Assembly: GCA_902769535.1 (NCBI GenBank)
Contig: CACXPH010000015.1
Span: 1 to 40,824, forward strand
Reading direction: 5' to 3'
DNA: 40,824 nt
Source: an uncultured Bacteroidales bacterium
GTDB taxonomy: Bacteria > Bacteroidota > Bacteroidia > Bacteroidales > Paludibacteraceae
Made by a program: the position numbers and the translations under genes. Below are positions 9,506 through 38,897 of the stretch, in pieces. The notes below the pieces were generated by a model that was not told the DNA's origin, did not search any database, and was given only the letters and a program-made list of their open reading frames with translations. Numbering within the stretch: position 1 is the stretch's first letter; every line of letters starts with the position of its first letter.

Positions 9506-10786
9506 ATGAATTATCTTTTCACGTCTGAATCGGTGTCCGAAGGACACCCGGACAAAGTGAGCGATCAGATTTCTGACGCTATTCTGGACAACATGATCGC
9601 GCAAGACCCGCAGGCTCACGTAGCCTGCGAGACCTTGTGTACGACCGGTCAAGTGGTTATTGCCGGTGAGGTGAGTTGCAAAGGTTGGGTGGACATCCAA
9701 CAGGTAGTACGTAAGACGATTGCCGAGATCGGTTACACCAAAGCGGAGTATAAGTTCGAGGCGGAGAGTTGCGGTATATTGACCGCACTCCATGCGCAGA
9801 GTCAGGACATCAACATGGGTGTCAGTCGTGAGGTGGCCGAAGAGCAAGGTGCCGGTGACCAGGGTATGATGTTCGGATATGCGACGGACGAGACGGATAA
9901 CTACATGCCGCTCACCCTCGACCTCGCGCACACCTTAGTCTTTACGCTCGCGCGTATCCGTAAGGAAGGACAGCAGATGACCTATCTCCGTCCGGACAGC
10001 AAATCGCAGGTGACCATCGAGTACGATGAGCACAACAAACCCGTACGTATCGATACCATCGTGCTCAGTACGCAGCATGATCCGGAAGTAACGGTGAACG
10101 GTGAACGGTTAGCGGTGAGCGGAGAGCTCATCAAGAAGGATATCATCGAGATCCTGCTGCCGCGTGTAGCAACGCGTGACAGCCGTTACAGCCAGTTGCT
10201 CCATGAGTTCCTGGCGGATACGAACGCGAAACTGTTGGTGAACCCGACGGGTAACTTCGTGATCGGCGGTCCCCACGGTGACACAGGTCTGACAGGCCGT
10301 AAGATCATCGTCGATACCTACGGTGGTCGCGGTGCCCACGGAGGTGGTGCCTTCAGTGGTAAGGATCCCTCGAAAGTGGACCGTTCGGCAGCCTATGCCG
10401 CTCGCTGGATCGCGAAGCACCTGGTGGCAGCCGGTGTAGCCCATGAGGCACTCGTGCAGGTATCCTACGCCATAGGCGTAGCTAAGCCCGTATCGCTGTA
10501 CGTCAACACCTACGGCACGGCGCAAGTGGACAAGAGTGACGCGGAAATAGCACAGATAGTAGGTCAACTGTTCGACCTGCGTCCGGCGGCTATCATCCGC
10601 GACCTCAAGTTGACACAACCGATGTACGAAGAGACCGCTAAGTACGGACACGTAGGCCGCACGAACGAGGTAGTCAAGAAGACTTTCTTTGATGCCGACG
10701 GCAACACGTTTGAACGCGAAGTAGAATTATTCACATGGGAGAAACTGGACCGCATTGACGAAGTCAAAGCGGTATTTGAGATTTGA
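9506..10786 (+). CDS. metK: S-adenosylmethionine synthase
   Basis: A 426-residue enzyme making SAM from methionine and ATP. Motifs: GHPDK (13-17) at the ATP site, FGYATDET, and the glycine-rich loop [25 protein letters not shown] 9506 was chosen because [17 protein letters not shown] matches the family; an ATG at 9491 overlapping the hpf stop would add five residues. Within the gene (10092-10126) five heptamer units encode [11 protein letters not shown] in a loop between the N-terminal and central domains. A second heptamer array begins at its last codons and runs through the start of lspA. SAM may also serve the Mod enzyme of the island. Confidence 0.95.
10092..10126. repeat. Heptamer array inside metK (5 units)
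   Basis: CGGTGAA, CGGTGAA, CGGTTAG, CGGTGAG, CGGAGAG in perfect 7-bp register. It encodes [10 protein letters not shown]. Confidence 0.8.
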
Positions 10787-10812
10787 GATTTTAGATTGAA
10801 GATTTTAAATCG
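10778..10812. repeat. Heptamer array across the metK stop and lspA start (5 units)
   Basis: GAGATTT, GAGATTT, TAGATTG, AAGATTT, TAAATCG. It contains the metK stop (10784-10786) and the TTG start of lspA (10796). Confidence 0.75.
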
Positions 10813-11331: not shown

Positions 11332-11847
11332 GTGAAATCACAAATCACAAATTATAAATCACAAATACTAATACTGCTGATCTGTGCAGCAGTATTAGGT
11401 GGTTGTCGACCGAAGGGTATCCTGCATTCTCGTCAGATGCGGGAGATCATTCTTGACCTGCATAAGACCGATGCCTTGCTGTATGTGAAAGGAGGTCATG
11501 CCGTCAGTCGTGAGGCAAAAATGATATACTATGCGCAGGTGATGGAGAACCACGGTGTGACGCAGGCGCAGTTCGACTCTTCGCTCGTGTGGTACACAGC
11601 ACACCCTGCCCTGTTCGACAAGATCTACCCGAAAGTGCTCAAAGAACTTAAAGCCGAAGAGCTGGCATTCTTAGAACTCTATCCGGAGTTCGGTCAGCCT
11701 AATGAACCCACCGCAGAACAAGCCGTTCCGGAACAACCGGTCTTCACGCATGACGACCTGGATAGCATTTTCTGGGTAATACAAAACGGTCCGTGCAACT
11801 CATGGAAAGAGTGGCAAAGACCGTATCGAATTCCGTTTAGCGATTAG
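11332..11847 (+). CDS. DUF4296 lipoprotein
   Basis: A 171-residue lipoprotein: signal segment ILILLICAAVLGGC with lipobox LGGC (Cys25), so predicted to be lipidated. The mature part holds the DUF4296 pattern: MREIILDLHKTDALLYVK, then Y-x-x-VMENHGVTQAQFDSSLVWYTAHPALFDKIYPKVL. The family is Bacteroidetes-specific, often beside lspA, with unknown function. The start is GTG at 11332, 2 bp after the lspA stop. The first residues (KSQITNYKSQI) are encoded by a heptamer array, so the N-terminus of its signal peptide is made of repeat DNA. Confidence 0.85.
   Translation: MKSQITNYKSQILILLICAAVLGGCRPKGILHSRQMREIILDLHKTDALLYVKGGHAVSREAKMIYYAQVMENHGVTQAQFDSSLVWYTAHPALFDKIYPKVLKELKAEELAFLELYPEFGQPNEPTAEQAVPEQPVFTHDDLDSIFWVIQNGPCNSWKEWQRPYRIPFSD
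11336..11370. repeat. Heptamer array encoding the signal-peptide N-terminus (5 units)
   Basis: AATCACA, AATCACA, AATTATA, AATCACA, AATACTA. It starts 1 bp after the GTG start codon of the DUF4296 lipoprotein. Confidence 0.8.
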
Positions 11848-11862
11848 CGTTTAGCGATTTAG
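11835..11862. repeat. Heptamer array between convergent genes (4 units)
   Basis: GTTTAGC, GATTAGC, GTTTAGC, GATTTAG. It supplies the stop codons of the DUF4296 gene (plus strand) and holA (minus strand). Confidence 0.75.
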
Positions 11863-12946: not shown

Positions 12947-14503
12947 GGGTATATAAATCATGTATTTGTATTCGGAGCGGTCGATTTCGCGATAACCTTC
13001 GGCACGTAGCATCTGCTCCAACGCGCTCTGTTTGTCTTTATACGTCTTTTTGGTCTTGAACTTAGGCGAGAACGAGCAGAAGACGATCGGTCGTTCGGCT
13101 TGTATGATCTCGCGGTACTTGACCGTATAAACGGAGTCGAAGATATTCGACCAGAACTCATTGAACCGCGCCGCCTGACAACCTGTCACCGCACGAATAC
13201 GGTGCATGTCCTGGCCGAAGGCGATAATGGGCTGATAGCTGACAGTTGAATGCTGAAGACTATCGTAATCCGCTTTGTATTGCTTGAGCTGGGCTTCATC
13301 CACGGGACGAATGTCGATATGTTCATACGGAGCGATGGTTGCACCCACCGTACAATGCCTCAGATTATAATCTCCGATACAATTGATACTGAAGCGCATC
13401 ATAACCGCTATGGTGAAGCCTAAAAGAGCCGGATAGAGATACTGACGCATCTCTTGCTCATAACGCGTAGCTGCCACAGAGAGCAAGCACACTGCCGAAG
13501 GGAATAACTTAAGCCAGCCGGTGTCGGTACCCAGGGTTGCGACTACTAAAACAGCCACTCCTATAGCTAACTCACGACGCCTGGTCATCAGTGCCCAGAA
13601 GATACAACCAACGGAGATCATGTAGGTCAGGTCGATGTTATACCACTGGTGGATCTTCGGTACGAACGTGACGTAATAGCACAAACCTGCACCCATCATG
13701 ACACCTGCTATTACCGGCAGGTATTCATTTATGATTGCAAATTTATGATTTATGATTTTATTGTTGCTTACCCACTGACCAACACACCACACACCGAGCC
13801 AGATCAAGGCATAGCCGAGCACCTTACCACCATTCACCCATAGTTTGGAGATCATCTCTCCTATACCGTGACTGCTCATCGCAGGGTCCATATAAGCCGG
13901 TGTGACAAACCAATAACCCAGCAGATAAACAACTCCTGCCGATGCCGCAGCAATCGGAACTAACCACAACGCTCTCTTCCTCCAAAGCGGAATCAGCACC
14001 AGCAGCACCAAGATATTCGGAAAGCGCACACTTACCGCTATTCCTGCGAGAATAGCTGTAAGAATTTCAAATTTATGACTGATGATTGCAAATTTGGCCG
14101 TACAGACCCATATGGCACTCAGCAGTAAGACAGTCAAGGTGCCGGGACTGAATTCCTGGAAGGCTCCGTATCCCATCAGACCGAACGCAAGCGCGAGCCA
14201 GTGGAGGTTATTAAGCCGCTGATCGCGGTTCAGCAACGCACCATACGGCAACACGATAGCCGCCACGACCGTCAGCCATGCAGCCAGGCGCAAGGGCAAG
14301 AGTTGTGCACCGAAAAGCCGCACCAACGCACCACCCGTGAGGATGGTACCAATTGACATCCAACCACTCTCTAAGGTCTGGTACTTATACAGCCAGTAGA
14401 ACGGATCCATCGGGTTTCCGTAACCGGCAAAGACGTACCAGAGCGACCAGGCAAGCGTGAAGCCCAGCAGACCTACTGATAATATGTATTTAGCAGATCG
14501 CAT
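12929..14503 (-). CDS. Polytopic membrane protein, GT-C glycosyltransferase-like
   Basis: A 524-residue protein with about 10-11 membrane helices and a soluble C-terminal domain (about 390-524) ending KYMIYIPGASSR. The first periplasmic loop has GNPMDPFYWLYKYQTLESGW, like the acidic/aromatic loop of GT-C enzymes that use polyprenyl-phosphate sugars. The N-terminus overlaps the wecE end by 31 bp, placing it in the amino-sugar operon. It probably transfers a lipid-linked sugar to a surface acceptor outside the inner membrane, as ArnT or GtrC proteins do. Two A/T-rich heptamer arrays encode cytoplasmic-loop-like segments (NNKIINHKFAII, FAIISHKFEI). Its stop lies inside structured element A. Family membership is inferred. 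Confidence 0.6.
   Translation of the reverse strand: MRSAKYILSVGLLGFTLAWSLWYVFAGYGNPMDPFYWLYKYQTLESGWMSIGTILTGGALVRLFGAQLLPLRLAAWLTVVAAIVLPYGALLNRDQRLNNLHWLALAFGLMGYGAFQEFSPGTLTVLLLSAIWVCTAKFAIISHKFEILTAILAGIAVSVRFPNILVLLVLIPLWRKRALWLVPIAAASAGVVYLLGYWFVTPAYMDPAMSSHGIGEMISKLWVNGGKVLGYALIWLGVWCVGQWVSNNKIINHKFAIINEYLPVIAGVMMGAGLCYYVTFVPKIHQWYNIDLTYMISVGCIFWALMTRRRELAIGVAVLVVATLGTDTGWLKLFPSAVCLLSVAATRYEQEMRQYLYPALLGFTIAVMMRFSINCIGDYNLRHCTVGATIAPYEHIDIRPVDEAQLKQYKADYDSLQHSTVSYQPIIAFGQDMHRIRAVTGCQAARFNEFWSNIFDSVYTVKYREIIQAERPIVFCSFSPKFKTKKTYKDKQSALEQMLRAEGYREIDRSEYKYMIYIPGASSR
13728..13762. repeat. Heptamer array inside the GT-C-like gene (5 units)
   Basis: TTTATGA, TTGCAAA, TTTATGA, TTTATGA, TTTTATT. 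It encodes part of NNKIINHKFAIINE on the minus strand. Confidence 0.7.
14068..14095. repeat. Heptamer array inside the GT-C-like gene (4 units)
   Basis: CAAATTT, ATGACTG, ATGATTG, CAAATTT. It encodes KFAIISHKFEI, a near copy of the peptide from the array at 13728. Confidence 0.65.
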
Positions 14504-15950: not shown

Positions 15951-16285
15951 GCGCGTGAGAGGATGGTTATACCGGTTATTATGATGATGGATCCGATGAT
16001 ATTCGGGATCGTGATGGTCTCACCGAAGAGCAAAGCCGCGATGAGCATAGTAAAGATGAGCGTGGTGCCTTTGAACAGATAGGCGGTGCTTAGTTCGATA
16101 CGCCGCAGTACTTGTTGCCACAAGATCGCGTACGCACCGATGATAGCAACTGCCCCACCGAACCAAAACAGATACCACCACGAGAAAGTCGGTTGTAACG
16201 CCGCCATCTTCGTGCAGATACCTACACAGGCATACAGCATGTTGATGCCGATGAGCGCAGCTATATGTTTGATTTCAAGTTTCAA
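15947..16285 (-). CDS. SMR/EamA-type four-helix membrane protein, ArnE-like half
   Basis: A 112-residue protein with four helices (about 6-26, 34-57, 69-88, 93-110) and the motif LLFGETITIPNIIGSIIIITGITIL at the C-terminus, as in EamA/SMR halves. It is translationally coupled to the next SMR gene. The two differ enough to suggest a heterodimer of opposite topology. Its start region carries an A/T-rich heptamer array (16273-16307) that also forms the spacer to the acyltransferase gene. Confidence 0.7.
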   Translation of the reverse strand: MKLEIKHIAALIGINMLYACVGICTKMAALQPTFSWWYLFWFGGAVAIIGAYAILWQQVLRRIELSTAYLFKGTTLIFTMLIAALLFGETITIPNIIGSIIIITGITILSRA

Positions 16286-16307
16286 ATCTACAATCTAAAA
16301 TCTACAA
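16273..16307. repeat. Heptamer array at an intergenic junction (5 units)
   Basis: TTTCAAG, TTTCAAA, TCTACAA, TCTAAAA, TCTACAA. It covers the start of the ArnE-like gene (16285) and the stop of the acyltransferase gene (16302). Confidence 0.75.
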
Positions 16308-16961
16308 TGCGTTTCGCAAGAAACGCGCAGGGTTTCCTACCCAGATCTCCCCTTCGTTTATATCATGTTTGAGTACACTACCCATACCGAGTGTAGCATA
16401 ATCGCCGATGGTAAACCCTTCGTGGATCGTGGCGTTAAGACCGATATGAACCCCCTTGCCAATCGTCAGATAACTACCTACCGCCGCTTGCGCCGCTATA
16501 TGGCAGTAGTCACCTACGGTGTCATCATGACCCATCATCGAACCCGCCATCATCAGACAGCAGCGTCCTAACTTCGTGGCAGGCGACATAGACACATTCG
16601 GCATAATCACACAGCCTGCACCTAACTGCACGCTCGGTGCCACATACGCCATCGGGTGCACAAAGGTAGCCAAACGGTCATCGGGGATATTCAGCGCTTC
16701 AAATAGCGCGATACGCTCACGGTTTCCGTCAATACGGTAGATCGTATTGATAAACCAATACCCTTCGTCCAACCATTTCTTCGTATCCTCCAGACGTCCG
16801 ATCACAGGGAACATATCCAACTGTTTGCCTACGGGTTCGCGGTCGTTGAGAAAACCTGCCACCTCGAGATCGGTGGCACCCATACGCCGTGCGTGTTCAA
16901 TGGCAGCAGCCACCACCGTCGCATTACCTACCCCACCTAATATAACTACTTTTCTATTCAT
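16302..16961 (-). CDS. NeuD/PglD-type sugar acyltransferase
   Basis: A 219-residue protein. The N-terminal Rossmann-like domain starts KVVILGGVGNATVVAAAIE (UDP/dTDP-sugar binding in PglD). From about residue 100 a left-handed parallel beta-helix with hexapeptide repeats follows (VHPMAYVAPSVQLGAGCVIM, GHDDTVGDYCHIAAQAAVGS). It ends WVGNPARFLRN, the usual close of acetyl-CoA-dependent transferases. His148 in GHDD is the likely catalytic base position. PglD and relatives N-acetylate 4-amino sugars; beside wecE the natural substrate is dTDP-Fuc4N or a lipid-linked form. It overlaps the glycosyltransferase gene by 4 bp. Confidence 0.8.
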   Translation of the reverse strand: MNRKVVILGGVGNATVVAAAIEHARRMGATDLEVAGFLNDREPVGKQLDMFPVIGRLEDTKKWLDEGYWFINTIYRIDGNRERIALFEALNIPDDRLATFVHPMAYVAPSVQLGAGCVIMPNVSMSPATKLGRCCLMMAGSMMGHDDTVGDYCHIAAQAAVGSYLTIGKGVHIGLNATIHEGFTIGDYATLGMGSVLKHDINEGEIWVGNPARFLRNAL

Positions 16962-18918: not shown

Positions 18919-18995
18919 CTCTAACCTCTAACCTCTAACCTCTAACCTCTAACCTCTAACCTCTCACCTCTAACCTCTCACCTCTAACCTCTCAC
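18919..18995. repeat. Longest intergenic heptamer array (11 units)
   Basis: Six CTCTAAC units, then CTCTCAC, CTCTAAC, CTCTCAC, CTCTAAC, CTCTCAC in perfect register. It fills the whole gap upstream of the ATP-grasp gene and runs into the last codons of the next gene. In the transcript direction it reads GTTAGAG/GTGAGAG. Confidence 0.95.
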
Positions 18996-20546
18996 CTTTA
19001 TCTGCACAATAGCATGACGACCGTTTCGGCATTTCCATTGGATCTCTGTCGGCACACCGTAATGCTGTTCGATCTGACGGCATACATCCACTAATTTGCC
19101 TTTCTCTTGTTCGTAACTACGGTCAGTGAACACATATACATCCTCACGCAGCAAGGCGCGATAACTGTGACCTACCGGCTTATTGAGCGGTATCCAAGTC
19201 AACCAGCCCATGGTGTATTTGTTAAAATCATACGGCCATATATGCCAGGGTGTATTGGCCTCCAGAAGCATGGCAGAACCGATGGTTACCAATGTCGCCT
19301 CTTCCGGCACCCGTTCAAGCAAGGGTTGCTGCATCCACGACCAGTAGAGTTGTTTGTACTGCACATAGACTCGCTGGTTATAGGTCTGATACCCGTACCA
19401 GCCGCAGAGTGCAATCATAGCAAGGGCTATTCCCCAACGCCGTTTGAGACCTGTCGTGTTCGGCAACAGCATAAAATCCGTCATGAGTAACGGCAGGATC
19501 ATACATAGGAACACACGGTTCTTGAGAAATCCGTCCAGACTCACATGGATCATCAGCGCGATCACGAAGACCGAATAGAGGATGAGGAAGATATATTTGG
19601 ATCTATTACCTGTCGTGAGGATCATGAGGATCAGCAGTGCCAAGAGGATACCTACCTCCACGGCGTATTTGTCGAGTCGGTGCAGATTCTTGAGCTGCTC
19701 ACGGAAAGGCACAGCACCTACCACCGCACTGATCTTACGAATAGTCGGCAGGTCTATCTGTTCCGGATCGGGAATAAATTGCAGTAAGAGTTTATAATCA
19801 CTCCACTCCACGCCTTCAGGTAGTTGTTCCGCACGTAGTTTATACGCATTAGGGTTATCCGTGAGTTGCGCACGGAGTTGATTATACTCGCGGTAATATT
19901 TCCACTCCGGATCGCTATCATAGACGTATTTATTCGCCACACGACAACCTACCACGGCCGTCAACAAGACCACGACAGCGATATATTTGCGCCAATTGAG
20001 ACGGTAGGTATAGACGATGATCGGAGCCATAAGAACACCCACCAGTCCTGCTGCCATAAAACGGATAAGCGCACCGATGATCACAAACAGCACACCTGTC
20101 CAACGTGCCGTCTTACTCTCGCGTAGCAGCAACGCACAGCCTGCCAGGCACGTGAGGCCTGCCGTGGTAGTGAATTGCAGCGCCACAATGATGCGTACCC
20201 ATAGTACATAGAGCACCAGCAGCCATAAGACCCGCTCCCACTTGGCGCGGTTCGGTGTCGTAAGTACACAATACGAGAGGATACTCATCGACAGTATATG
20301 CAGCACGGCAAACGAGAGCGTGTACCACTCGATAGCCGTCGTCAGACCGTAGAGCAGTGTCAGCACATAGCCGTAAATGACATTGATATAGACCAGATGA
20401 AAATCAGGCACACCGGAGTACGAACCGTTGGCGATCATAGCCATGACGACGTCGTCGTTTTCCTCGAACGCGAGCGGCATCACCATCGCCATCACCGCGA
20501 AGAACGCGATGTTACAAGCCAGCACTATGTACTTTAACCCTTTCAC
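18984..20546 (-). CDS. Polytopic membrane protein, GT-C-like
   Basis: A 520-residue protein with about 10 membrane helices and a soluble C-terminal domain (about 400-520). The first loop has the acidic LAFEENDDVVMAMIANGSYS then PDFHLVYINVIYGYVL. An acidic pair here is the usual metal/lipid-phosphate site of GT-C enzymes. A large loop at about 200-290 (SDPEWKYYREYNQLRAQLTD) is probably periplasmic. It belongs to the glycan cluster and could be a polymerase, ligase or second lipid-linked-sugar transferase. No exact family recognised. Its last codons are encoded by heptamer repeats. Confidence 0.6.
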   Translation of the reverse strand: MKGLKYIVLACNIAFFAVMAMVMPLAFEENDDVVMAMIANGSYSGVPDFHLVYINVIYGYVLTLLYGLTTAIEWYTLSFAVLHILSMSILSYCVLTTPNRAKWERVLWLLVLYVLWVRIIVALQFTTTAGLTCLAGCALLLRESKTARWTGVLFVIIGALIRFMAAGLVGVLMAPIIVYTYRLNWRKYIAVVVLLTAVVGCRVANKYVYDSDPEWKYYREYNQLRAQLTDNPNAYKLRAEQLPEGVEWSDYKLLLQFIPDPEQIDLPTIRKISAVVGAVPFREQLKNLHRLDKYAVEVGILLALLILMILTTGNRSKYIFLILYSVFVIALMIHVSLDGFLKNRVFLCMILPLLMTDFMLLPNTTGLKRRWGIALAMIALCGWYGYQTYNQRVYVQYKQLYWSWMQQPLLERVPEEATLVTIGSAMLLEANTPWHIWPYDFNKYTMGWLTWIPLNKPVGHSYRALLREDVYVFTDRSYEQEKGKLVDVCRQIEQHYGVPTEIQWKCRNGRHAIVQIKVRG

Positions 20547-20552
20547 CTATAG

Positions 20553-20573
20553 CCAATAACCAATAACCATTAT
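20553..20573. repeat. Short heptamer array in an intergenic gap (3 units)
   Basis: CCAATAA, CCAATAA, CCATTAT in the 26-bp gap between the GT-C-like gene and the nucleotidyltransferase-like gene. Confidence 0.6.
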
Positions 20574-21628: not shown

Positions 21629-21635
21629 TTTTCAC

Positions 21636-21684
21636 CTCTAACCTCTAACCTCTCGCCTCTAACCTCTAACCTCTAACCTCTAAC
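21636..21684. repeat. Intergenic heptamer array (7 units)
   Basis: CTCTAAC, CTCTAAC, CTCTCGC, then four CTCTAAC. It fills the gap between the nucleotidyltransferase-like gene and the MMPL gene and supplies the MMPL stop region. Confidence 0.9.
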
Positions 21685-24600
21685 CTTTAGTCTCCTCTTC
21701 TCCCGTATAACGGTTCTTCTTACCGTACACCACCCATTTATCCAAAGCCACCAGCACGGCCGGTACGACGGTCAGCGTGAGCACGATAGCCATGAACGCA
21801 CCGACAGCCAGACAACCTACGATATTCGAGATCATCAGATCGTCTATGAACAAGGCCATAGCACCCGGACCGATCACCATGATCAGACCGGAAGTAAGAA
21901 TCGTTCGTATCGAACCTCTGTACGCCGCACAGACGGCATCGACAGGCAGCATGGTCTTACGACTCTCGCGGTAGTAGTTAGCGAACAAGATACCGTAATC
22001 GATCGTGGCACCCATGAGGATAGCCTGCACGATGAGGTACGCCAGATACAACATCTGTCCGGTCACCAATCCGGCTACCACTACGTTCACATATACCGCC
22101 GTCATGACCGTCACCACAAGGATTATCGGCACGATCACCGAGCGGAAAGTGAGGGCTACGATCAGGAAGATAGAGAGGATGGTCAACAAGGACACCACGT
22201 TCATCTCATGATCAAACCCACCGCGCATCTCTGCGTACATCACCGACTCGCCTACATAATAATGCGCATGTACCATGCGTGCGTCCGCAAAAGCCGTGAG
22301 CGTATCCACGAACGCATAGGTCTCCGGAGATTCCTTGGGTAAGGTCGAGAGCACGACGAGCAAGGAGTGGTCCTCTTTGCGTAACATACCCAGACCGTCC
22401 TTGAGTTGCGCCTTTATATCGCCTGTTTGCTCCTGGATATCAGCCGGCAAGATATCTGCCAGTCGCGGATCATTAACCAGCGTGTCGCACAGGAAGACGA
22501 GCAGCGGTTCAAAGCCCATCTTCAGGGTATCTGCCTGTCCGTTCACCGAGCCGTAGTAATCGTACAACAAGGACATCTGCGCCGGTGTCACCGGATCGGA
22601 CTTGACATCCGACAGTTTCATCAGACGCGCCAGTTTAGCCGCCATCTTATTCGCTGTGTAGGTCTTCTCTCCGAACACCAGTTCTGTGAACAGTTCCGCC
22701 TGCAGATCCGCCTTGGACGGACCTTTATGCTTTACTTCCGCTTTGGGTTCGTACGTGATTCCTTCGGGTTTAGCGGCACGAGCCGTATCCGTACTGTGCA
22801 GCGCACGCTGCAGTTCAGCAATCGTTCGAACCATCTCTTCTGTATCCAGTTCAGACGGCTGTTTAGCCACTCTCGGTGTTTCTTTCTTAGGATAAGCGAA
22901 AGCGAGCAGTTGCTCTTCCGTTTGGAAATCATCGATACCGAAAGCATGCAGCAGTCGGTTCATGTCATGCGCCGTGAGCACGGCGTTCTTATCCGCCAGA
23001 TCCATGAGGTAGGTTCGCTGACCGAGCAACGCACGCTGCTCATCGGACACCATACCTGCCAAACCCGGGCGTTGGAACAGGTCATCTACCAACAGATGCA
23101 CGTACTGCAGCGGACTCATCTTCGACACCTTGCCCGGCGCGTATCCGTACACGAGTTTCGTCTGGATCAGGGTCGAACCCATGAAGACAGACATCTCCTT
23201 GACGTTCATCGGCAGACGAATAGCCGCCGTATCGGTCAACTTACGCATCTCCACGGACGCAGCCGAAGTCTGCACGGCATTCAAGCGCTCGAAGAAAGGC
23301 ACAACGGCTATTCCCTCGATACCCATCTGCGGCATCGCCACCGTATCTCCGCTAACAGCCAGCGGTGAAGGATTAGCGGTGAGCGGAGCTATCGTCTCAC
23401 GCGGTAAGACAATCGTGTCTTCTTCAACCGTCGGCGTTTCCCTCTCACCTCTAACCTCTAACCTCTCACCTCTAACCTCTAACCTCTCACCTCTAACCTC
23501 TAACCTCTCACCTTTATCTTCCGGCACCTCTAACATCGACTGCAAGTCCGCGATCTGCTTTTTCATATCTTCGTCCAGATACGCAGAGAAGAGCGGATTA
23601 GACGCCACGTGGGTGTGCAGGAAACGCGCCAGTTCCGGGAAACCGAGTTCCATCTCCGTCGAGTCCTTGGCTCGCATGTAATAGAGCAGTTGAACGGTCT
23701 CGGGTGTGATCATGTCGAGTGCCTCAGGCGGCACGGTCGTACCCTCCGGCATAAAGTCCTTAAAATCCGTCAATAGTGAGCGCACATGCGTCGTCATCTC
23801 ACTCGGCGTAAGCGGTTTGGACATCAGCGTCGGGTAACTGATCACAAGCTGGATACCCGGCTGTGCCACCAGGCTGTCCACCAGTCCATAAACGCTGTCC
23901 TCGTCCTGCGTGTCATACACAAGCACGAAGGGGTTCGGACTCGGGAACACTTTTTCTATCTGCGACTCTGCCTCGGCCGAGAAGAAGATCGTCGTCTGCT
24001 GCGAGAGGTACCAGGACAGACCGAACAAGATAACGGCGCCTGTTGCCATCGGCAGTTTATGCCGCGAGATGAACTTCGCCATCTTATCCGTCGGCGGAAC
24101 AAACGCTTTCTTGGCCGTCTTGTTGATCGTGTGACGGAAGAGTAACATCAGCGCCGGCATAGCTGTGAACGTGCACACGAGCGAGCAGACCACACCTTTA
24201 GCCAGCACGATACCCAGGTCTGCACCTATCTTCAGACGCATGAAACAGAGCATGAGCAGACCCACCACGGTCGTCAGTGCCGACGAGAGGATGGAAGGCG
24301 CAGCCTTCTTAATCGCATTATTCGCAGCAATGCCTGCCGTGTGGCGATCCGTGTGCTCGTCCTGCTCCTGCCGGTAACGGTTCAAGAGCACGATACAGTA
24401 ATCCAGCGAAAGGACGGCCTGCAGGATCGAACCGATGAAGTTCGTGGTGATGGACACAGACGGCAACAAGGCGTTCGTACCCATGTTAAGCAGAATAGCC
24501 AGGCCGGCCGTGATAAGGACGACCACGGGTTCAAACCAGGACTGCGCCATCAGGAACAGCACCAGCATGATCATGAACGCGGCGAAAATAATGACGGAGA

Positions 24601-25030: not shown

Positions 25031-25065
25031 ATCACTAATCGCTAATTCGTTAATCGTTAATCGTT
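25030..25065. repeat. Heptamer array at the MMPL start (5 units, one of 8 bp)
   Basis: AATCACT, AATCGCT, AATTCGTT, AATCGTT, AATCGTT. It fills the gap between the MMPL TTG start and the stop of the pseudouridine synthase gene. Confidence 0.75.
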
Positions 25066-26132: not shown

Positions 26133-26153
26133 CGTAAAAATTAAATAGGATAA

Positions 26154-26201
26154 AGGCTAACGGCTAATGGCTAGTGTTATCTAGTCATTCGCCTTTAGCC
26201 T
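26154..26201 (-). terminator. Terminator-like 21-bp hairpin after rpmF, built from heptamers
   Basis: The left arm 26154-26174 and right arm 26181-26201 pair along 21 positions with two mismatches and one G-T pair; the loop is TGTTAT. On the minus strand the stem is followed by TTTATCC and then TATTTAATTTTT. It starts 24 bp after the rpmF stop. The arms consist of GGCTAAC/GGCTAAT/GGCTAGT and CGCCTTT/AGCCTCT units. Confidence 0.65.
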
Positions 26202-27116: not shown

Positions 27117-28157
27117 TTAACAACTCTCAAATTGCTTGAGGAACCGCACGTCGTTCTCGGAGAACAGACGCAGGTCTTTCACGCGATATTTGAGGTTCGT
27201 GATACGCTCAACACCCATACCGAAGGCATAGCCGCTATAGACCTTGCTGTCGATACCGCAGGCCTCCAGCACGTTCGGGTCCACCATACCGCACCCAAGT
27301 ATCTCTACCCAACCTGTCCCCTTGCAGAACGAACAACCCGTACCGCCGCAGATATTACAACTGATATCCATCTCGGCACTCGGCTCCGTGAACGGGAAAT
27401 AACTCGGACGCAGACGGATCTTCGTCTCAGGACCGAACATCTCCTTGCTGAAATACAGCAACGCCTCGCGCAGGTCCGCAAAGCTGACATTCTTGTCGAT
27501 ATAGAGTCCCTCCACCTGGTGGAAGAAACAGTGCGCACGCGCGGATATAGCCTCGTTACGGTACACACGACCCGGGCAGAGCACACGGATAGGCGGTTTC
27601 TGACTCGTCATGACACGGGTCTGCACAGAACTCGTGTGCGAGCGCAAGAGCACGTCCGTCGGTTTCTGCACACCGATCTCTTTCTCGATGAAGAACGTGT
27701 CCTGCATGTCGCGTGCCGGGTGCTCCGGCGCGAAGTTCAGCATGCCATACACGTGCTTGTCGTCCTCCACCTCCGGTCCCTGCGCGATCGTGAAGCCGAT
27801 GCGGGAGAAGATATCCTCGATCTCTTCGCGCACCAACGACAGCGGATGACGCGTACCGAGCGCAATCGGATCCGGCGTACGGGTCAGGTCTAACCTTTCG
27901 CCACTAGCCTCCAGCCTCTCGCCTAATTGCTCACGGAGTTCAGCCAAACGACCTTCCGTCTCTTGACGTAACTGGTTCAGGAGCTGACCCAACTCACGTT
28001 TCTGATCGTTCGGCACCTCGCGGAACTCATTGAACAGCGCCGTGATCTCGCCTTTCTTACTGAGGTATTTGATACGCAAGGCCTCGAGCTCTTCGGCATT
28101 ATTCGCCTGGATCTCCTTCACCTGCGCCATCAGGGTTTGAATACTATCTTTCAGCAT
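27117..28157 (-). CDS. pheS: Phenylalanyl-tRNA synthetase alpha subunit
   Basis: A 346-residue class II synthetase subunit. The N-terminal coiled coil (about 1-90) binds tRNAPhe. The catalytic core starts at [19 protein letters not shown]. Motif 2 is [25 protein letters not shown]; motif 3 contains the end [33 protein letters not shown] insert looks like a small zinc-type knuckle, known in Bacteroidetes PheS. ATG 28157 begins [12 protein letters not shown], the family start, and has a perfect promoter 19 bp upstream. A heptamer array (27889-27930) encodes [14 protein letters not shown] between coiled coil and core. Confidence 0.93.
27889..27930. repeat. Heptamer array inside pheS (6 units)
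   Basis: TCTAACC, TTTCGCC, ACTAGCC, TCCAGCC, TCTCGCC, TAATTGC. It encodes the linker [13 protein letters not shown] between coiled coil and catalytic core. Confidence 0.75.
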
Positions 28158-29533: not shown

Positions 29534-29575
29534 GCTAAAGGCGAGAGGCGAGAGGTTAGAGGTTAGAGGCTATAA
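29534..29575. repeat. Heptamer array after glyA (6 units)
   Basis: GGCTAAA, GGCGAGA, GGCGAGA, GGTTAGA, GGTTAGA, GGCTATA, 2 bp after the glyA stop. Confidence 0.8.
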
Positions 29576-31635: not shown

Positions 31636-32276
31636 AGGCCGTACAGGCAGTTAGCGCACCAGAACGCGTACTGCGCGGTCATGCAGTAATCGCCGGCGCG
31701 GAGCCATAAGACAACGCTCAGTATATCCACGGCGAGCCATAGGAACCAGTGCTCGCGATACACCAATATCATCAGTACCTGTGCCACCAGCGCAGGTATT
31801 GTTGTAAAGGCGTCCAAGTACGGCTGGGTATCGTCCGTCCATGCACTCAACCCAAGTCCCGTCAGCCACGAACCCACCAACGTCAGCACGGCTATCAACA
31901 CAAGCGTGCGCCAGGATAAAGCGCGCGGCCTCACCTCTAACCGCTCACCGCTAACCGCTAACCGTTTACGCCACGCGTAAACGCCATAAATCATCGTACC
32001 GAAATAATAGGCATTGATAGCCAGTTCGCCGTAGAAACGCTGCGTCCAGCAGAGGTACGAATACGTGAGCACCTGCGCAAAACCGAACACGTACGTCAGT
32101 ATATTCCCCTGCGCACAGAGGCAGACGGAACAGATACCGAGTAAGCCGCTGATGAGGCTTATTGGCGAGAGGCTGGAGGCTGGAGGCAAGAGGTGATTGG
32201 TTATAGTGAACGTCACCACCTGTATCAGCAAGCCGAGCGCCAGAAAACTATAATCGAAAACCTTATTTCTTTGCAT
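31599..32276 (-). CDS. pnuC: Nicotinamide riboside transporter PnuC
   Basis: A 225-residue inner-membrane protein with about seven helices and the PnuC pattern: CLCAQGNILTYVFGFAQVLTYSYLCWTQRFYGELAINAYYFGTMIYGVYAWRK, and a C-terminal WLAVDILSVVLWL with YAFWCANCLYGLHRW. PnuC lets nicotinamide riboside (or related vitamins) diffuse in, trapped by phosphorylation, to feed NAD synthesis. It overlaps the Ig-like gene by 14 bp. Two heptamer arrays lie within: one encodes AVSGERLEVRP in a cytoplasmic loop after the YAWRK segment, the other PPASSLSPIS near the N-terminus. Confidence 0.88.
   Translation of the reverse strand: MQRNKVFDYSFLALGLLIQVVTFTITNHLLPPASSLSPISLISGLLGICSVCLCAQGNILTYVFGFAQVLTYSYLCWTQRFYGELAINAYYFGTMIYGVYAWRKRLAVSGERLEVRPRALSWRTLVLIAVLTLVGSWLTGLGLSAWTDDTQPYLDAFTTIPALVAQVLMILVYREHWFLWLAVDILSVVLWLRAGDYCMTAQYAFWCANCLYGLHRWRSLGISNE
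31929..31963. repeat. Heptamer array inside pnuC (5 units)
   Basis: CCTCACC, TCTAACC, GCTCACC, GCTAACC, GCTAACC. It encodes LAVSGERLEVR on the minus strand. Confidence 0.8.
32164..32198. repeat. Heptamer array near the 5' end of pnuC (5 units)
   Basis: GGCGAGA, GGCTGGA, GGCTGGA, GGCAAGA, GGTGATT. It encodes NHLLPPASSLSP in the first loop, with the repeat inverted relative to 31929. Confidence 0.75.
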
Positions 32277-34603: not shown

Positions 34604-35559
34604 TACCAAGCTAAACTCGATGCACCTAAGATAGCGGCATCGCTGTCTTTGAGAATGGAGATCGATACAGGGATTTTACCCTTCCAGATCGGCATCAGGT
34701 TCGCGTCGAGTGCCTCACGGATCGGATCCATGATCCAGTGACCTGACTTGGTCAGACCGCCGAACAGGATAATCGCTTCCGGACTCGAGAAATGTACGTA
34801 GTCCGCCAGTTTCTCACCGAGCAGATGACCCGTATAATCGAAGATCTCCTTGGCAACCAGATCACCCTTCTCTGCCGCGTCGAACACGTCCTTCGAGGTG
34901 ATATTATTGATATCCGGTACATTACGCAGCAGCGTCGGTTGGGTCGTAGCCGTCACGATCTCCTTGGCCGTACGAGCTACACCCGTCGCCGAAGCGTACG
35001 CCTCGATACAACCTTTCTGACCGCAGCCGCACAGACGACCGTTACCGCTATGGTCAATCTTACAGTGACCTAACTCACCCGCAAAACCGTCATGACCGTA
35101 CAGCAACTTACCGTCAATCACGATACCCGAACCTACACCGGTTCCCAAGGTGATCACGATGAAGTTCTTCATACCACGTGCACTACCGTAGATCATCTCG
35201 CCTTGCGCAGCCGCGTTGGCGTCGTTCGTGATCGTGCACTTCACACCCATGCGCTCGCTGATCAACTTAGCAAACGGCACCACACCCTTCCACGGCAGGT
35301 TCGGAGCTTGCTCGATGCAACCCGAATAGAAATTAGCGTTCGGCGCACCGCAGCCTACACCTACTACATCACTCATCGAGATGCCTTCGTCCTCCACCAG
35401 GCGTTTCAGACCTGCGCAGAGCACGTCGCAGTACTCGTCGATATCCGGATACTGCTGCGTCGGAATCGAATTGCTACGTAATACTTGACCTTCGTCGTTA
35501 ACTAAACCGAACTTGGTGCCTGTGCCACCTAAGTCGATACCCAAAGCAAATTTTTTCAT
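34603..35559 (-). CDS. ROK-family sugar kinase (glucokinase-like)
   Basis: A 318-residue kinase. The ATP-phosphate loop is GIDLGGTGTKFGLV (8-21). The sugar site has TNDANAAAQGE with the catalytic Asp. The ROK zinc motif is GELGHCKI followed by CGCGQKGCIEAY. It phosphorylates glucose or an N-acetyl hexosamine; the exact substrate cannot be read from sequence. The closest Bacteroidetes relatives are annotated glucokinases. It sits between the peptidase and the deacetylase genes. Confidence 0.87.
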   Translation of the reverse strand: MKKFALGIDLGGTGTKFGLVNDEGQVLRSNSIPTQQYPDIDEYCDVLCAGLKRLVEDEGISMSDVVGVGCGAPNANFYSGCIEQAPNLPWKGVVPFAKLISERMGVKCTITNDANAAAQGEMIYGSARGMKNFIVITLGTGVGSGIVIDGKLLYGHDGFAGELGHCKIDHSGNGRLCGCGQKGCIEAYASATGVARTAKEIVTATTQPTLLRNVPDINNITSKDVFDAAEKGDLVAKEIFDYTGHLLGEKLADYVHFSSPEAIILFGGLTKSGHWIMDPIREALDANLMPIWKGKIPVSISILKDSDAAILGASSLAW

Positions 35560-35586
35560 TTATGATTTATGATTTAAGATTTATAG
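35559..35586. repeat. Heptamer array between ROK kinase and peptidase genes (4 units)
   Basis: TTTATGA, TTTATGA, TTTAAGA, TTTATAG. It forms the 21-bp spacer and the peptidase stop region. Confidence 0.75.
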
Positions 35587-37641
35587 ATTATTTTGTAAAA
35601 ATTTCAATATCTTGTTATGCATGTGTTTCGCGTTGTTTCCGCGACGCAGATGATGATTATCATCCGGATAGAGTTGCATCTCGAAGTCCTTATCGGCCTC
35701 CACGAGCTTCGCGATATACTGCATCGTGTGCTGTACGTGCACGTTGTCGTCACCCGTTCCGTGGATGATCAGCACCTTTCCCGTCAGGTCAGCCGCTCTG
35801 TCCAGCAACGAAGCCTGATTATATCCGCGGTCATTCACCTGCGGCCGACGCATATAGCGCTCCGTGTACGCGCTGTCGTACAGCCGCCAATCGGTCACCG
35901 GTGCAATCGCGATTCCTGCCTTAAACGGATGGTTCGCCTGACTCATCGTCATCAGCGTCTGATAACCGCCGTACGACCAACCGAGAATCGCCATCTTATT
36001 GCCGTCTATATCCGGTCGCTGTGCAGCCCAGTTAGCTGCAGCAATCAGGTCCTCCGCCTCTTTCACACCCAGGTTCATATACGTCTCGTTCCGCCATGCT
36101 CTACCCTTGCAATCGCTTCCTCGCGGATCAACAATCAGCACCGCATAGCCGGCTTCCACCAAGGCGTACTCAAATCGTTTCCGCCATCTGTTCAGCACCC
36201 GCTGACTCTGCGGACCACTATAGTGCATGACGACTAATGGTCTTCCTTCATTCGTTAACTCGTTCACTCCTTCATTCGTTATAAGGAGCATTGCCTCTAA
36301 TTCTCTCGCCTCCAGCCTCTCGCCTCTTACCTCTATCTTTATAAGTTCCGGCTCCGGCAAACCATTCGCCTGCCAAGCCTCAGCTACCTCCGCATTATCC
36401 TCCAACACTCTTTCCACTTTCACCTTTCCGCCTTCCACCTTACACAGCGTGTACGTGTTCGGTGTCCCAAAAGACTGATAGCAGAACACGGCTTTATTCG
36501 CCTCTTTATTGAACCGTGCCGACCACATACCCTCCTTGTCGGTCAATTTTACCTCTCTTCCCTTTACGGAGGAGCCGGAGGTAGGCTTCAAACTCACGCA
36601 GTATATATCGCGTGTTGCCGGTGTCGTAGCCGCCTGATAATAGAGCGTCTGCGTCTTCTCGTTCACCGCATACAATGCCGTTACATCCATACCTTCCGGC
36701 GTCAACGCACGCACCTTAAAACCGTTATTGGCGTACAGGAAAGCTTGTCGCCAACCGTTCTGTTCGCTAAGCACGACCACACGACCGTCACTCAACCATA
36801 TCCACTCGTCAAACAGGCTGTAGTCCATGAAGTACTGCTTACTCTCTTCACGATACCACGGAGTCGCCACCGTCGATTTGGCATTGCAGTCAAACACCTC
36901 CATCAGCGTCTGGTCTCTATTCACCCGCTGCACGAACACCCGTTCGTTATCATACCACCGCAAGCGCGGGATATAGACATCGTTCACTCGTTCATTCGTT
37001 AAGTCCTTCAACGTTAAAATGCCTTTCGTCGCAATATCATACACGCACACACTCGCCTTCGCATTTTGACAACCCGCCTTCGGATACCGCAAGTGTTCCT
37101 GCGTCGGATATTGCGTCTCGCCATAGACGTCCCAACTGAAATCCGGAACTTCGGTTTCATCCAGTCGCACATAAGCCAATCGCTTCGAATCAGGACTCCA
37201 TGCGAACAAAGCCGTCACACCGAACTCCTCCTCGTACAACCAGTCCGCCACACCGTTGATGATATCTCTGTTCTCATCCTTCGTCACCGCCACTTCCGTA
37301 CCAAAATCGCACTTATGGATATACAGGTTATTGCCTATCACAAACGCCACATACCGTCCGTTCGGACTCATCTGCGCGTCCCTCACTCGCTCATTCGCTA
37401 ACTCACTAACTCCTTTACCTAATCGCTTCCGGCTATGCTTCATCGTATCGACGATGTACCAGTCCGCCACCTCCGAACGACGGAAGATCTTTTCTTCGTT
37501 CTCCTTCTCCAACCGATAACGACCGCCGGCCTCTGCTACGTTCAGAATAGAGTCCTGTTCCGCAACAGACAGTATCTTCGCATTATACTCGCCTCCCAAA
37601 ATACCGGTCAGCACACTCAATATAATCAATAATGTTTTCAT
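35581..37641 (-). CDS. Dipeptidyl peptidase IV-like serine peptidase (S9B)
   Basis: A 686-residue exported peptidase: short signal segment MKTLLIILSVLTGILGG, a beta-propeller (about 40-440), and an alpha/beta-hydrolase domain (about 450-686). Catalytic triad: Ser556 in GWSYGGY, Asp631 in GTGDDNVH, His663 in DDNHHLR. The propeller carries the DPP-IV substrate motif DWLYEEEFG (Glu pair binding the peptide N-terminus). Such enzymes release X-Pro/X-Ala dipeptides in the periplasm. Repeat inserts: EVRGERLEARE plus TNEGVNELTNEG at the start of the hydrolase domain, and LTNERVND and SELANERV in the propeller. The start overlaps the previous stop (ATGA). Confidence 0.9.
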   Translation of the reverse strand: MKTLLIILSVLTGILGGEYNAKILSVAEQDSILNVAEAGGRYRLEKENEEKIFRRSEVADWYIVDTMKHSRKRLGKGVSELANERVRDAQMSPNGRYVAFVIGNNLYIHKCDFGTEVAVTKDENRDIINGVADWLYEEEFGVTALFAWSPDSKRLAYVRLDETEVPDFSWDVYGETQYPTQEHLRYPKAGCQNAKASVCVYDIATKGILTLKDLTNERVNDVYIPRLRWYDNERVFVQRVNRDQTLMEVFDCNAKSTVATPWYREESKQYFMDYSLFDEWIWLSDGRVVVLSEQNGWRQAFLYANNGFKVRALTPEGMDVTALYAVNEKTQTLYYQAATTPATRDIYCVSLKPTSGSSVKGREVKLTDKEGMWSARFNKEANKAVFCYQSFGTPNTYTLCKVEGGKVKVERVLEDNAEVAEAWQANGLPEPELIKIEVRGERLEARELEAMLLITNEGVNELTNEGRPLVVMHYSGPQSQRVLNRWRKRFEYALVEAGYAVLIVDPRGSDCKGRAWRNETYMNLGVKEAEDLIAAANWAAQRPDIDGNKMAILGWSYGGYQTLMTMSQANHPFKAGIAIAPVTDWRLYDSAYTERYMRRPQVNDRGYNQASLLDRAADLTGKVLIIHGTGDDNVHVQHTMQYIAKLVEADKDFEMQLYPDDNHHLRRGNNAKHMHNKILKFLQNNL
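36247..36286. repeat. Octamer array inside the peptidase gene (5 units)
   Basis: TTCATTCG, TTAACTCG, TTCACTCC, TTCATTCG, TTATAAGG. It encodes LITNEGVNELTNEG on the minus strand. Confidence 0.75.
36303..36337. repeat. Heptamer array inside the peptidase gene (5 units)
   Basis: CTCTCGC, CTCCAGC, CTCTCGC, CTCTTAC, CTCTATC. It encodes KIEVRGERLEARE, only 17 bp from the octamer array. Confidence 0.8.
36981..37012. repeat. Octamer array in the propeller of the peptidase (4 units)
   Basis: CGTTCACT, CGTTCATT, CGTTAAGT, CCTTCAAC. It encodes LKDLTNERVND. Confidence 0.7.
37383..37414. repeat. Octamer array in the propeller of the peptidase (4 units)
   Basis: TCACTCGC, TCATTCGC, TAACTCAC, TAACTCCT. 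It encodes GVSELANERVRD. Confidence 0.7.
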
Positions 37642-38897
37642 TCTCTAATTCGTAAAACCTTTCGGCCATTTTTAATAACCAGTTCGAAAGGTCCCCACGG
37701 TATAACCCGTTCATTCGTTAATTCGTTAACTCCTTCATTCGTTAACACCACTCCTTCCGTGTTCGGATGGCACCACCACATCGGTGTCTGCTCCGGATCC
37801 GGCACACGGTACAAACGCCAGGCGCCTTTCGGATGATCCCCTAAGGTATAATCACTCAGCCATACCACTTCCTGCTCGAATTTCCGGTATAATATCCACA
37901 CCTTATCCCCTTCTTCCTTCGCGATAAACAGCCAGGTCGTATCCGGTAACACGGAGTAGTGCCAAACCGACTCCGCTTGCCTCAATTCCGTTGCCGTCTC
38001 GTTGTAACCCACATAGCCGTTCGAGGCCCAGTTACGTATCGTGCAGGTCGTATCCGCCGTATTGAAATCCAGATAGTAGAGCTCACCGGCATCCACCGGC
38101 TCCCTTTCCTCCAGCTTCATCAGACCGTTGTTCACATCCCCGGTCAGCAGGTAGTCAAACAGTTCCAGCACATAATACCCGTCTTCCGGCGCTGCCTGTC
38201 GTTCACCGGTCGGTGGCTCCACGTCCGTCCAGACGGCCCAGAGCGTGACATCCTTCTTCGGATAATACCGCTCTCCGGCCTGCCATATCTCAGGTTGTTC
38301 ATCCGTCGCTTCCGTGAGTTCGCTTGACGTCCAACCGGCAAAAAACCATCCGTCCTTATCCGCTCGCTTCGGCAGCACGATTCCGCTTCCCACTTCGGTT
38401 TCCTGTACCACCTCGCTAACCCCATCCGTCATCAGCGTCACGCTATAAGCCTGCGCCTGCGCCTCCGTCCAGGTAATCTCGTATTTCTCGATATGCAGCG
38501 AGTTGGTCGTTCCCATCACCTGCACCTCCAGCGTGCTCACCGTCTGCTCCCCACTCCATCCGATCGGCTGGTAGTCCGTGTTGTTATACGCGCCGAACCA
38601 CTCCATATACGTGCCTTCGTTCCGGTAGAGCTGCTTGCCGTCCGCTGTCATCGTGATAACCCCGGCTCCGCTACTCTTGTTCGACCTTACATACACCAGC
38701 ACTTTCTCCACCTCCACGCCATCCAACCTGCTCAACGTCAGCGTCGCCGTGTCTTTCGACGTGACGCTACCCTTACTGCCCGTATTGTAATACGTCGCCT
38801 TCATATCCTTAGGCCACGCACATTCCGCTTTCACAGTTCGTTTGTCCTGCACCGTCAGCGTCATCACCGCACTCAGCAAAAACAGCAGTACTCGCAC
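37638..38897 (-). CDS. Secreted protein with a Listeria/Bacteroides repeat
   Basis: A 419-residue exported protein (signal MRVLLFLLSAVMTLTV). Residues about 25-150 look like a beta-sandwich (TATLTLSRLDGVEVEKVLVYVRSNKSSGAG). Residues about 155-225 form an InlB/Listeria-Bacteroides (Flg_new-type) repeat: YSVTLMTDG, WFFAGWTSSE, KKDVTLWAVWT. The C-terminal half is beta-rich and unassigned. The start is GTG at 38897, supported by a promoter about 20 bp upstream. It heads the six-gene operon and may be a surface binding protein. An octamer array encodes TNEGVNELTNERV near the C-terminus. Confidence 0.78.
   Translation of the reverse strand: MRVLLFLLSAVMTLTVQDKRTVKAECAWPKDMKATYYNTGSKGSVTSKDTATLTLSRLDGVEVEKVLVYVRSNKSSGAGVITMTADGKQLYRNEGTYMEWFGAYNNTDYQPIGWSGEQTVSTLEVQVMGTTNSLHIEKYEITWTEAQAQAYSVTLMTDGVSEVVQETEVGSGIVLPKRADKDGWFFAGWTSSELTEATDEQPEIWQAGERYYPKKDVTLWAVWTDVEPPTGERQAAPEDGYYVLELFDYLLTGDVNNGLMKLEEREPVDAGELYYLDFNTADTTCTIRNWASNGYVGYNETATELRQAESVWHYSVLPDTTWLFIAKEEGDKVWILYRKFEQEVVWLSDYTLGDHPKGAWRLYRVPDPEQTPMWWCHPNTEGVVLTNEGVNELTNERVIPWGPFELVIKNGRKVLRIRE
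37708..37747. repeat. Octamer array near the 3' end of the repeat-protein gene (5 units)
   Basis: CGTTCATT, CGTTAATT, CGTTAACT, CCTTCATT, CGTTAACA. It encodes LTNEGVNELTNERV, almost the same peptide as in the neighbouring peptidase. Confidence 0.8.

Follow-up and report, generated by a model that had tools for sequence, protein, structure and literature searches.

Short tandem arrays of changing heptamers at gene junctions and in protein loops of a Paludibacteraceae genome

We analyzed a stretch of 40,824 nucleotides from an uncultured Bacteroidales bacterium of the family Paludibacteraceae (GenBank assembly GCA_902769535.1, contig CACXPH010000015.1), hereafter the window, which is contig C15 of a host draft genome of 1.887 Mb that is ~85% complete. 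The window is rich in short, degenerate tandem arrays with a unit of 7 nt, or sometimes 8 nt. Comparison with relatives indicated that the site and the period of these arrays persist across species while the repeated word changes. The strongest pattern, which an earlier reading of the letters alone (the sequence-only reading) had left unremarked, is the tie of the arrays to tight junctions between co-directional genes. On balance, the best explanation is a recurrent slippage-type tandem duplication of the local 7-nt word, filtered by selection.

Arrays were called by Tandem Repeats Finder (TRF; score of at least 30) and by a stricter lag-match scan, for which a threshold of score 10 or score 12 was used depending on the count. 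Between 10,090 and 37,745, TRF placed period-7 arrays at 20 distinct sites (21 rows, two of them overlapping) and period-8 arrays at 4, close to the 22 and 4 loci counted in the sequence-only reading. The lag-match scan of positions 9,301-40,824, outside an island that occupies the first 9.3 kb, gave 17 period-7 and 3 period-8 arrays. When the same region was shuffled by bases within 60-bp blocks (n = 150), means of 0.05 period-7 and 0.04 period-8 arrays were obtained (maximum 1 each), and triplet shuffles (n = 150) gave 0.04 and 0.02 (maximum 2 and 1). The signal was far above shuffled sequence (17 arrays against ~0.05), the yardstick that the sequence-only reading had itself named. Elsewhere in the host genome, 80 period-7 arrays of score 10 or more were found in 20 stretches of 20 kb (400 kb), together with 0, 7, 11, 11, 4, and 16 arrays of periods 5, 6, 8, 9, 10, and 11, respectively; one Markov shuffle of this sample contained 1 period-7 array. 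At score 12, periods 5 to 10 yielded 0, 2, 72, 9, 2, and 2 arrays in 441 kb, 7 nt being commoner than the neighboring unit sizes. The period-7 excess was thus confirmed in both the window and the genome, where heptamer tandem repeats exceed statistical expectation (80 per 400 kb and 17 per 31.5 kb, versus 0-2 in shuffles). As had been claimed, the units differ widely while the period is kept: the 88 host-genome arrays comprise 49 unit classes, ignoring rotation and strand. The lack of arrays in the island was also reproduced (zero arrays), but it is not informative: of 40 further 9.3-kb pieces taken from the genome, 9 were empty as well.

The MMPL exporter of the window, used as a query against named genomes, gave 60 loci, all titled Bacteroidales, Bacteroidia, or Paludibacteraceae bacterium. 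All relatives with a stated source came from animals, most commonly from the ruminant stomach; they are gut, mostly ruminant, members of the Paludibacteraceae (Bacteroidales), a family named after the genus Paludibacter, and the host is probably a gut bacterium as well. Some genomes are present twice among the loci (L065-L084 and L105-L164). The MMPL comparison covered 57 of the 60 loci (L148, L161, and L162 were left out as partial), and the linker of the exporter was located in 53 of 58 sequences. At the junction between the pseudouridine synthase and MMPL genes, the best period was 7 or 14 in 32 of 58 sequences, compared with 5 of 580 controls within coding sequence, and the words there included TTAACGA, AAAGTCG, AGTTGAT, GGTCGTT, TTTAAAG, GAAAACG, AGATTTG, and AATCATC. 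Period 7 or 14 was also observed at the MMPL 3' junction in 9 of 58 sequences and in the MMPL linker in 9 of 53, with period 8 in one; the linker words included GTTAGAG, CGAAAGT, AATCAAA, TTCAGCA, and the 8-mer AGGGTTAG.

In 29 of 30 loci (L180 left out), the MetK loop following QHDE was short in 15 and longer in 14, and a recognizable array was present in five of the longer loops, the heptamer being AACGGTG in the host and AATGGTG, GAATTGA, and others in relatives. Across 8 sequences, one PnuC loop was seen with four distinct heptamers; in PheS, 3 of 26 orthologues carried arrays in the loop. The DPP-IV arrays were left out of this comparison, only one relative locus carrying that gene. The alignments show arrays as insertions relative to the relatives. 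According to the sequence-only reading, period-7 DNA arises again and again by some process and is not a single element that was copied; this proposal gained support, since the same junction or loop bears other heptamers or none in relatives; nor were the arrays conserved as ordinary protein sequence, the sequences mostly differing where sites recur.

The tempo of change was estimated from 130 arrays whose flanks reached at least 85% identity in an alignment with the nearest relative, after identical arrays with flanks of >99.6% identity had been dropped. With flanks of 97-99.7% (n = 26), 12 arrays were identical, 7 had the same unit, 2 had another unit (one site viewed from both sides), 4 had another sequence, and 1 site was empty. 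The corresponding numbers were 0, 5, 4, 3, and 1 at 94-97% (n = 13), 2, 10, 20, 15, and 0 at 90-94% (n = 47), and 1, 7, 17, 13, and 6 at 85-90% (n = 44). Unit numbers changed between related species: the array of L120 was 28 bp longer than that of L124 with flanks 99% identical, and those of L116 and L122 were exactly one unit (7 bp) apart with flanks of 96%. In L127 and L131 (flanks 97.7%), a 15-bp difference consisted of one base and copies of AATCGTC, a word that the shorter allele also contains. Of 29 same-unit pairs with the nearest relative, 11 were of equal length and 7 of the 18 unequal ones differed by a multiple of 7. Sites empty of any array were found at the MMPL 5' junction in L132, where the stop and start codons overlap (TAATG), and in L119, and arrays were found there in L129, L130, L152, and L163; the array of L129 lies between stop and start, and its match begins with TTG.

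Genes were predicted with a simple finder of our own, so that start codons and very short genes are uncertain. Predicted genes contained 36 of the 72 period-7 arrays in the host genome; for the relatives (100 loci), the count was 116 of 311. By density per 100 kb, co-directional gaps ranked first (121.5 in the host and 122 in relatives), followed by convergent gaps (64 and 63), divergent gaps (21 and 19), and genes (8.9 and 6.6). Fully genic arrays of the host genome numbered 42 of 88, versus 79 of 88 expected from random placement. The view that the repeats invade genes was therefore overstated: about half are genic by count, yet their density in genes is 14 to 18 times below that in co-directional gaps. 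Some arrays first placed in genes (those starting at 10,774 and 11,335) become junctional, within the uncertainty of start codons, once the gene finder resets the start, and the observation that genic arrays always keep a readable frame is partly built in because gene calling demands an open frame.

We then counted co-directional junctions with an array by the length of the non-array spacer. In the host, arrays were present at 6/63 junctions with no spacer, 12/88 with 1-20 bp, 4/36 with 21-50 bp, 4/41 with 51-100 bp, and 2/62 with >100 bp. In 40 stretches of 38 relatives, drawn from other stretches than the MMPL set, the counts were 7/93, 13/114, 9/73, 5/71, and 11/120, respectively. The share was thus ~7 to 14%, or about one in ten, for spacers of up to 100 bp. 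As this per-junction rate is nearly flat up to 100 bp, the number of arrays per base is 60-140 times higher in gaps of 1-20 bp than in gaps of >100 bp (per 100 kb, 1655 versus 12 in the host and 1383 versus 24 in relatives). Period-8 arrays were fewer and likewise denser in short gaps, but in relatives they were not rarer in divergent gaps (27 per 100 kb) than in co-directional (24) or convergent (25) gaps. The period-7 junction arrays tended to start at, abut, or overlap the upstream stop codon, and the median distance from the array end to the next start was 27 bp, with the uncertainty of the starts. Among the nine orthologous junctions represented by 10 or more members, proneness was uneven (score 10): arrays were present in 36/55, 29/53, 3/10, and 10/37 (65, 55, 30, and 27%), versus 4/38, 2/20, and 0/10 in three cases (0-11%; chi-square 64.6, 8 df). 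The most prone junction (36/55) is a gap of ~390 bp and may conceal a short gene missed by the finder. Since all 57 loci of the MMPL comparison, like most of the 20 genus stretches described below, surround the MMPL gene, junction counts from them reflect the MMPL region.

Within genes, array lengths peaked at 30-33 bp (42/96 in relatives and 20/44 in the host), and junction arrays were more spread (34/179 and 15/53 in that range). The smallest frame-preserving multiple of 7 is 21 bp, and one PnuC loop of the host has 7 residues more than three of its orthologues; this length pattern is a tendency only, because the MetK loops are longer by 15-45 bp. In the 42 host genic arrays, the consensus unit contained a stop on the coding strand in 17 and on the other strand in 27. 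Stop avoidance was evident in the MMPL linker array, which has a 21-bp higher order: every third unit is GTGAGAG and not GTTAGAG, so that TAG stays out of frame and the MMPL reading frame remains open.

Array content differed strongly within the order. In 20 stretches from 20 genomes of the genus (mostly the MMPL locus), 71 period-7 arrays of score 10 or more were found in 394 kb, compared with 5 in 293 kb from 20 stretches of 12 genomes of other families, where some stretches are short and one reads as masked. Across 40 genus genomes, each sampled over 10-60 kb, the density at score 12 ranged from 0 to 50 per 100 kb. It was 17.0 in the 20 genomes whose MetK is at least 83% identical to that of the host and 7.5 in the other 20; array-rich and array-poor members occurred in both groups.

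These observations would be accommodated by an ongoing mutational process, elevated in parts of the genus, that tandemly duplicates a local word of 7 nt (sometimes 8 nt). The simplest such act would be strand slippage during DNA synthesis, with the polymerase perhaps setting the 7-nt step. Later slippage in steps of 7, 14, or 21 would expand, shrink, and homogenize the array. Tandem duplication and slippage account for the unit-number changes, the 14- and 21-bp higher-order patterns, and the reuse of local words. Selection would determine which sites keep arrays. Between the stop and start codons of operons, an A-rich, C-poor, often stop-bearing spacer would be harmless, and arrays may be tolerated or perhaps favored there; in genes, they would persist mainly in loops and linkers, provided that their length leaves the frame intact and they bring in no in-frame stop. 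Arrays would be lost or rewritten quickly, and the unit at a given site would soon give way to another. The nearly per-junction rate calls for a second ingredient, either tolerance or favor of operon spacers or a junction-linked origin, of which the former is more likely; we infer that selection alone may cause the junction preference.

Several observations weigh against this explanation. Slippage alone predicts neither that spacers of 1-20 bp are as array-prone as those of 51-100 bp nor that 7 nt prevails over 5 or 6. Eleven of the 18 unequal same-unit pairs were not a multiple of 7 apart, although array ends are fuzzy. At one junction of L127 and L131 with flanks 99% identical, the array was swapped for an unrelated one, and an insertion of ~80 bp at the MMPL junction (L110:9820-9900 compared with L108) comprised 53 bp of a two-part heptamer array, the rest being non-repeat sequence. 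Pairs of arrays sharing a unit within a locus numbered 26, versus 8.3 expected by label permutation (maximum 22 in 2000), which hints at some copying or biased word choice. The autocorrelation of unit order in long arrays was weak (21 positive and 16 negative; n = 37). In addition, no gene tracking array density was found among MutS, ExoVII, reverse transcriptase, and Y-family polymerase in 23 genomes.

As to these candidates, mismatch-repair loss was rejected: a MutS-family match was present in all 23 array-rich and array-poor genomes, a strong match missing only in G070 (71% complete), and this genome was also the sole exception to an ExoVII match (22 of 23). Reverse transcriptase matched in 7 of 23 genomes, unrelated to array density, with no match in G000 (~85% complete), G046, G060, or G062. 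Y-family polymerase matched in 20 of 23, and was lacking in the array-rich G062 and the array-poor G039 and G010. G062, which is listed as 100% complete and has 9 arrays in 20 kb, had matches to MutS and ExoVII and none to reverse transcriptase or Y-family polymerase. A gradient of units along the array, which stepwise error-prone extension would leave, was plain at L033:1026-1094: starting with TTTAAAG, the unit shifts by steps to GTTAGCG, each one looking like an imperfect copy of its neighbor. Such a gradient was not general.

The arrays could instead be functional intercistronic spacers kept by selection, an alternative that we consider doubtful. Repeated stops in every frame, together with a leader rich in A and poor in C, would aid termination and re-initiation, and a 7-nt step would matter since 7 is not a multiple of 3; the premise is that the phylum of the Bacteroidales makes little use of Shine-Dalgarno sequences. 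The steady share of arrays at any spacer of up to 100 bp and the uneven proneness of orthologous junctions agree with such a role. So does composition: on the sense strand, A makes up 41% and C 9% of junction arrays, compared with 31.5% and 19.7% in co-directional gaps, and units in gaps of up to 120 bp contained a stop on the sense strand in 94/120 and on the other strand in 51/120. Letter-permuted sense units, however, already gave 82/120, so that composition accounts for most of the stop content. Among 208 junction arrays, stops were sense-only in 100 and antisense-only in 27, a bias rather than a single orientation. The re-initiation motif in which a start overlaps a stop ([AGT]TGA) was present in 37/120 sense units, versus 23 permuted and 18 on the other strand, an excess that is suggestive only. 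Moreover, most junctions have no array, relatives lack one at the same junction, half of the host arrays are genic, and some stand at convergent junctions.

Dispersal of array pieces from site to site, by gene conversion, short recombination, or a mobile element, would let each genome spread its favorite words. The excess of same-unit pairs within loci would follow, as would the sharing of a unit by 3.9% of within-genome pairs against 1.2% between genomes and the whole-array replacement between L127 and L131 with intact flanks. Such copying is hard to reconcile with the number of unit classes in the host and with the four genomes, G000 among them, that lack a reverse-transcriptase match. A comparison of the 175 flanks of the 88 host arrays gave no similar pair at E 1e-6 and, at 1e-3, 10 pairs with lengths of 18-44 bp, indicating that no shared element surrounds the arrays, and the copies share no common sequence or ends. 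We therefore regard dispersal as improbable.

It is very improbable that period-7 DNA is added to stop/start junctions by a junction-directed writer, whether an enzyme or an event coupled to translation or transcription. A rate set nearly per junction and not per base, the tendency to abut the upstream stop codon, and the strong variation in density between species of one genus would fit such a writer. Conversely, no candidate gene emerged in the four families searched, many arrays are genic, and tolerance could yield the same bias. The wider proposal that a sequence-indifferent writer lays period-7 DNA per junction, and that the 7-nt excess in scattered bacteria reflects one shared machine, is improbable; if true, the writer would explain why different species keep the site and the period of an array but not its word, and plain slippage would not be the cause. 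Finally, chance, composition, or assembly artefact is almost certainly not the source: the genomes are metagenome assemblies and C-poor words recur, but shuffling nearly abolishes the arrays, different units with intact flanks occur in assemblies named RUG, RGIG, UBA, and others, and the other families are far poorer in arrays than the genus.

The arrays of the window are listed in Table 1. Pfam matches in the window include MetK, signal peptidase II (lspA), DNA polymerase III delta subunit, glycosyltransferase, ATP-grasp, MMPL, pseudouridine synthase, YceD, SHMT, PnuC, ROK kinase, and DPP-IV peptidase; PheS was identified from its sequence and not from a Pfam call. The pheS array pointed out in the sequence-only reading was marginal (65% matches), although the same loop has clear arrays in the three orthologues mentioned above. 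The stretch at 13741..13758 differs or is absent in orthologues, two of which bear other heptamers. Three orthologues have a second PnuC loop shorter by 7 residues than that of the host, and a fourth has one of equal length with no recognized array.

Table 1 Period-7 and period-8 arrays of the window.
Positions	Strand	Array	Location and remarks
10090..10127	+	period-7, AACGGTG to AGCGGTG	in metK; encodes extra loop, which is short in 15/29 aligned
10774..10804	+	period-7, ATTTGAG	spans metK stop codon and gap to lspA
11335..11366	+	period-7, AAATCAC	lspA/DUF4296-gene junction; start codon uncertain
11837..11856	.	period-7, TTAGCGA	convergent junction
13741..13758	-	short period-7	in gene without Pfam match
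16285..16308	-	period-7, AATCTAC on +	junction
18919..18997	-	longest array, 11.3 units GTTAGAG/GTGAGAG	co-directional junction upstream of ATP-grasp gene
20549..20569	-	period-7, TATTGGT	junction
21634..21686	-	7.6 units GTTAGAG	over MMPL stop codon and gap to next gene
23441..23513	-	10.4 units GTTAGAG/GTGAGAG	MMPL exporter linker
25047..25067	-	period-7, TTAACGA	pseudouridine synthase/MMPL junction
26147..26173	.	period-7, AGGCTAA	gap between YceD and pseudouridine synthase genes
27889..27924	-	marginal period-7	pheS; below lag-match threshold, TRF 30
29539..29569	.	period-7, AGGCGAG/AGGTTAG	convergent SHMT/AraC junction
31933..31964	-	period-7, CGGTTAG	PnuC loop; other heptamers there in 3/7 orthologues
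32169..32187	-	period-7, GCCTCCA	second PnuC loop
33305..33331	-	period-7, CCTCTCG	variable-length stretch of Big_5-domain protein
35558..35583	-	period-7, ATTTATG on +	junction upstream of ROK gene, touching its ATG
36980..37000	-	period-8	DPP-IV-like peptidase
37382..37412	-	period-8	DPP-IV-like peptidase
37708..37729	-	period-8, TTAACGAA	near 3' end of gene 37638-38864

A second set of repeats, with a period of 11 and about three to five copies each (e.g., TATGTTTGTCC, GGATCNCCCAA, and CATTGAGCATC), was observed at L016:12494, L018:18299, L022:11495, L025:5517 and 18926, L028:5526, L031:11705, window 991-1032, and other sites. There were 14 in 441 kb of the host genome, none within genes, and, unlike period 7, they lay mainly in gaps of >100 bp (7/8 in the host and 8/12 in the relatives' stretches). 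Our guess is that they are direct-repeat binding sites of regulators and not slippage products. In the island, a ResIII/DEAD helicase gene adjoins an N6/N4 DNA methylase gene (4266-8124), which looks like a type III restriction-modification pair; a 21-bp tandem repeat of 3.8 copies lies in an open reading frame without a Pfam match (1877-1955), and a 72-bp unit is present in six copies with 91% matches at the island edge (8540-8964).

Heptamer tandem repeats are familiar from filamentous cyanobacteria, whose STRR repeats consist of fixed words used as strain fingerprints; the host arrays share the heptamer step, but their words are diverse. An excess of heptanucleotides is already known in bacteria. 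According to passages of PMC4679880 and PMC4692102 that cite Mrazek, Guo and Shah (2007), heptanucleotides are the commonest long simple sequence repeats (LSSRs) in bacteria, and slippage with a 7-nt polymerase contact was proposed as the cause. The arrays described here resemble these LSSRs in their excess of the 7-nt period and phylogenetic scatter; relative to that description, they are short, degenerate, very diverse within one genome, dense in tight operon junctions, and present in loops, and their turnover at fixed sites is visible across 58 sequences of one locus. The portions of PMC4679880 considered here describe TAACTGA direct repeats in Beggiatoaceae, cyanobacteria, and five Bacteroidetes, with two sets in Paludibacter propionicigenes; the statement of the sequence-only reading that no equivalent had been described for Bacteroidales does not hold. 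In that account, arrays of 2-6 copies in the main genome lie mostly near a start codon, the word contains TAA and TGA on the sense strand, related words are rarely repeated, and nearly all sets are intergenic. That word occurs in L127 in rotation (CTGATAA). Unlike this single, nearly always intergenic heptamer, the present arrays use dozens of heptamers per genome and are often genic.

The GGGAATC/GGGGATT heptamers of Xanthomonas and Nostoc, as presented in parts of PMC4692102, also stand between genes and vary in length and sequence among close relatives, but they are fixed, G-rich, quadruplex-forming words, whereas the present junction units are rich in A and poor in C. As regards rapid and independent formation and the origin of new protein loops, the arrays come closest to the Borg repeats, which PMC9879509 describes as fast-evolving, independently formed, A-enriched, and located in intergenic regions and disordered protein parts. 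The Borg units are repeated perfectly and, within genes, their length is a multiple of 3; the present arrays keep a 7-nt step inside genes, have degenerate units, and belong to a bacterial genome. Satellites derived from heptamers occur in bacteria (PMC6749651, in part), and Bacteroidota are among the phyla with high short-repeat density (PMC12699852, in part). In the open-licence literature, outside which most subscription papers lie, the two Paludibacter sets of PMC4679880 were the only earlier record that we found for the genus or its family, and no paper brought Paludibacteraceae and tandem repeats together. What is new here is that the diversity of units is open-ended, that arrays at fixed sites turn over quickly, and that their rate is set nearly per junction.

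The heptamer excess in bacteria was first recorded by 2007, as cited in PMC4679880 and PMC4692102, and its cause has so far been a matter of proposal. The genus supplies array-rich and array-poor species, orthologous junctions that are empty, short, or long, and insertions in enzymes as conserved as MetK. These contrasts open the cause and speed of the 7-nt step, as well as its influence on the expression of operons, to direct tests, and the arrays show repeat DNA as a route to new protein loops.

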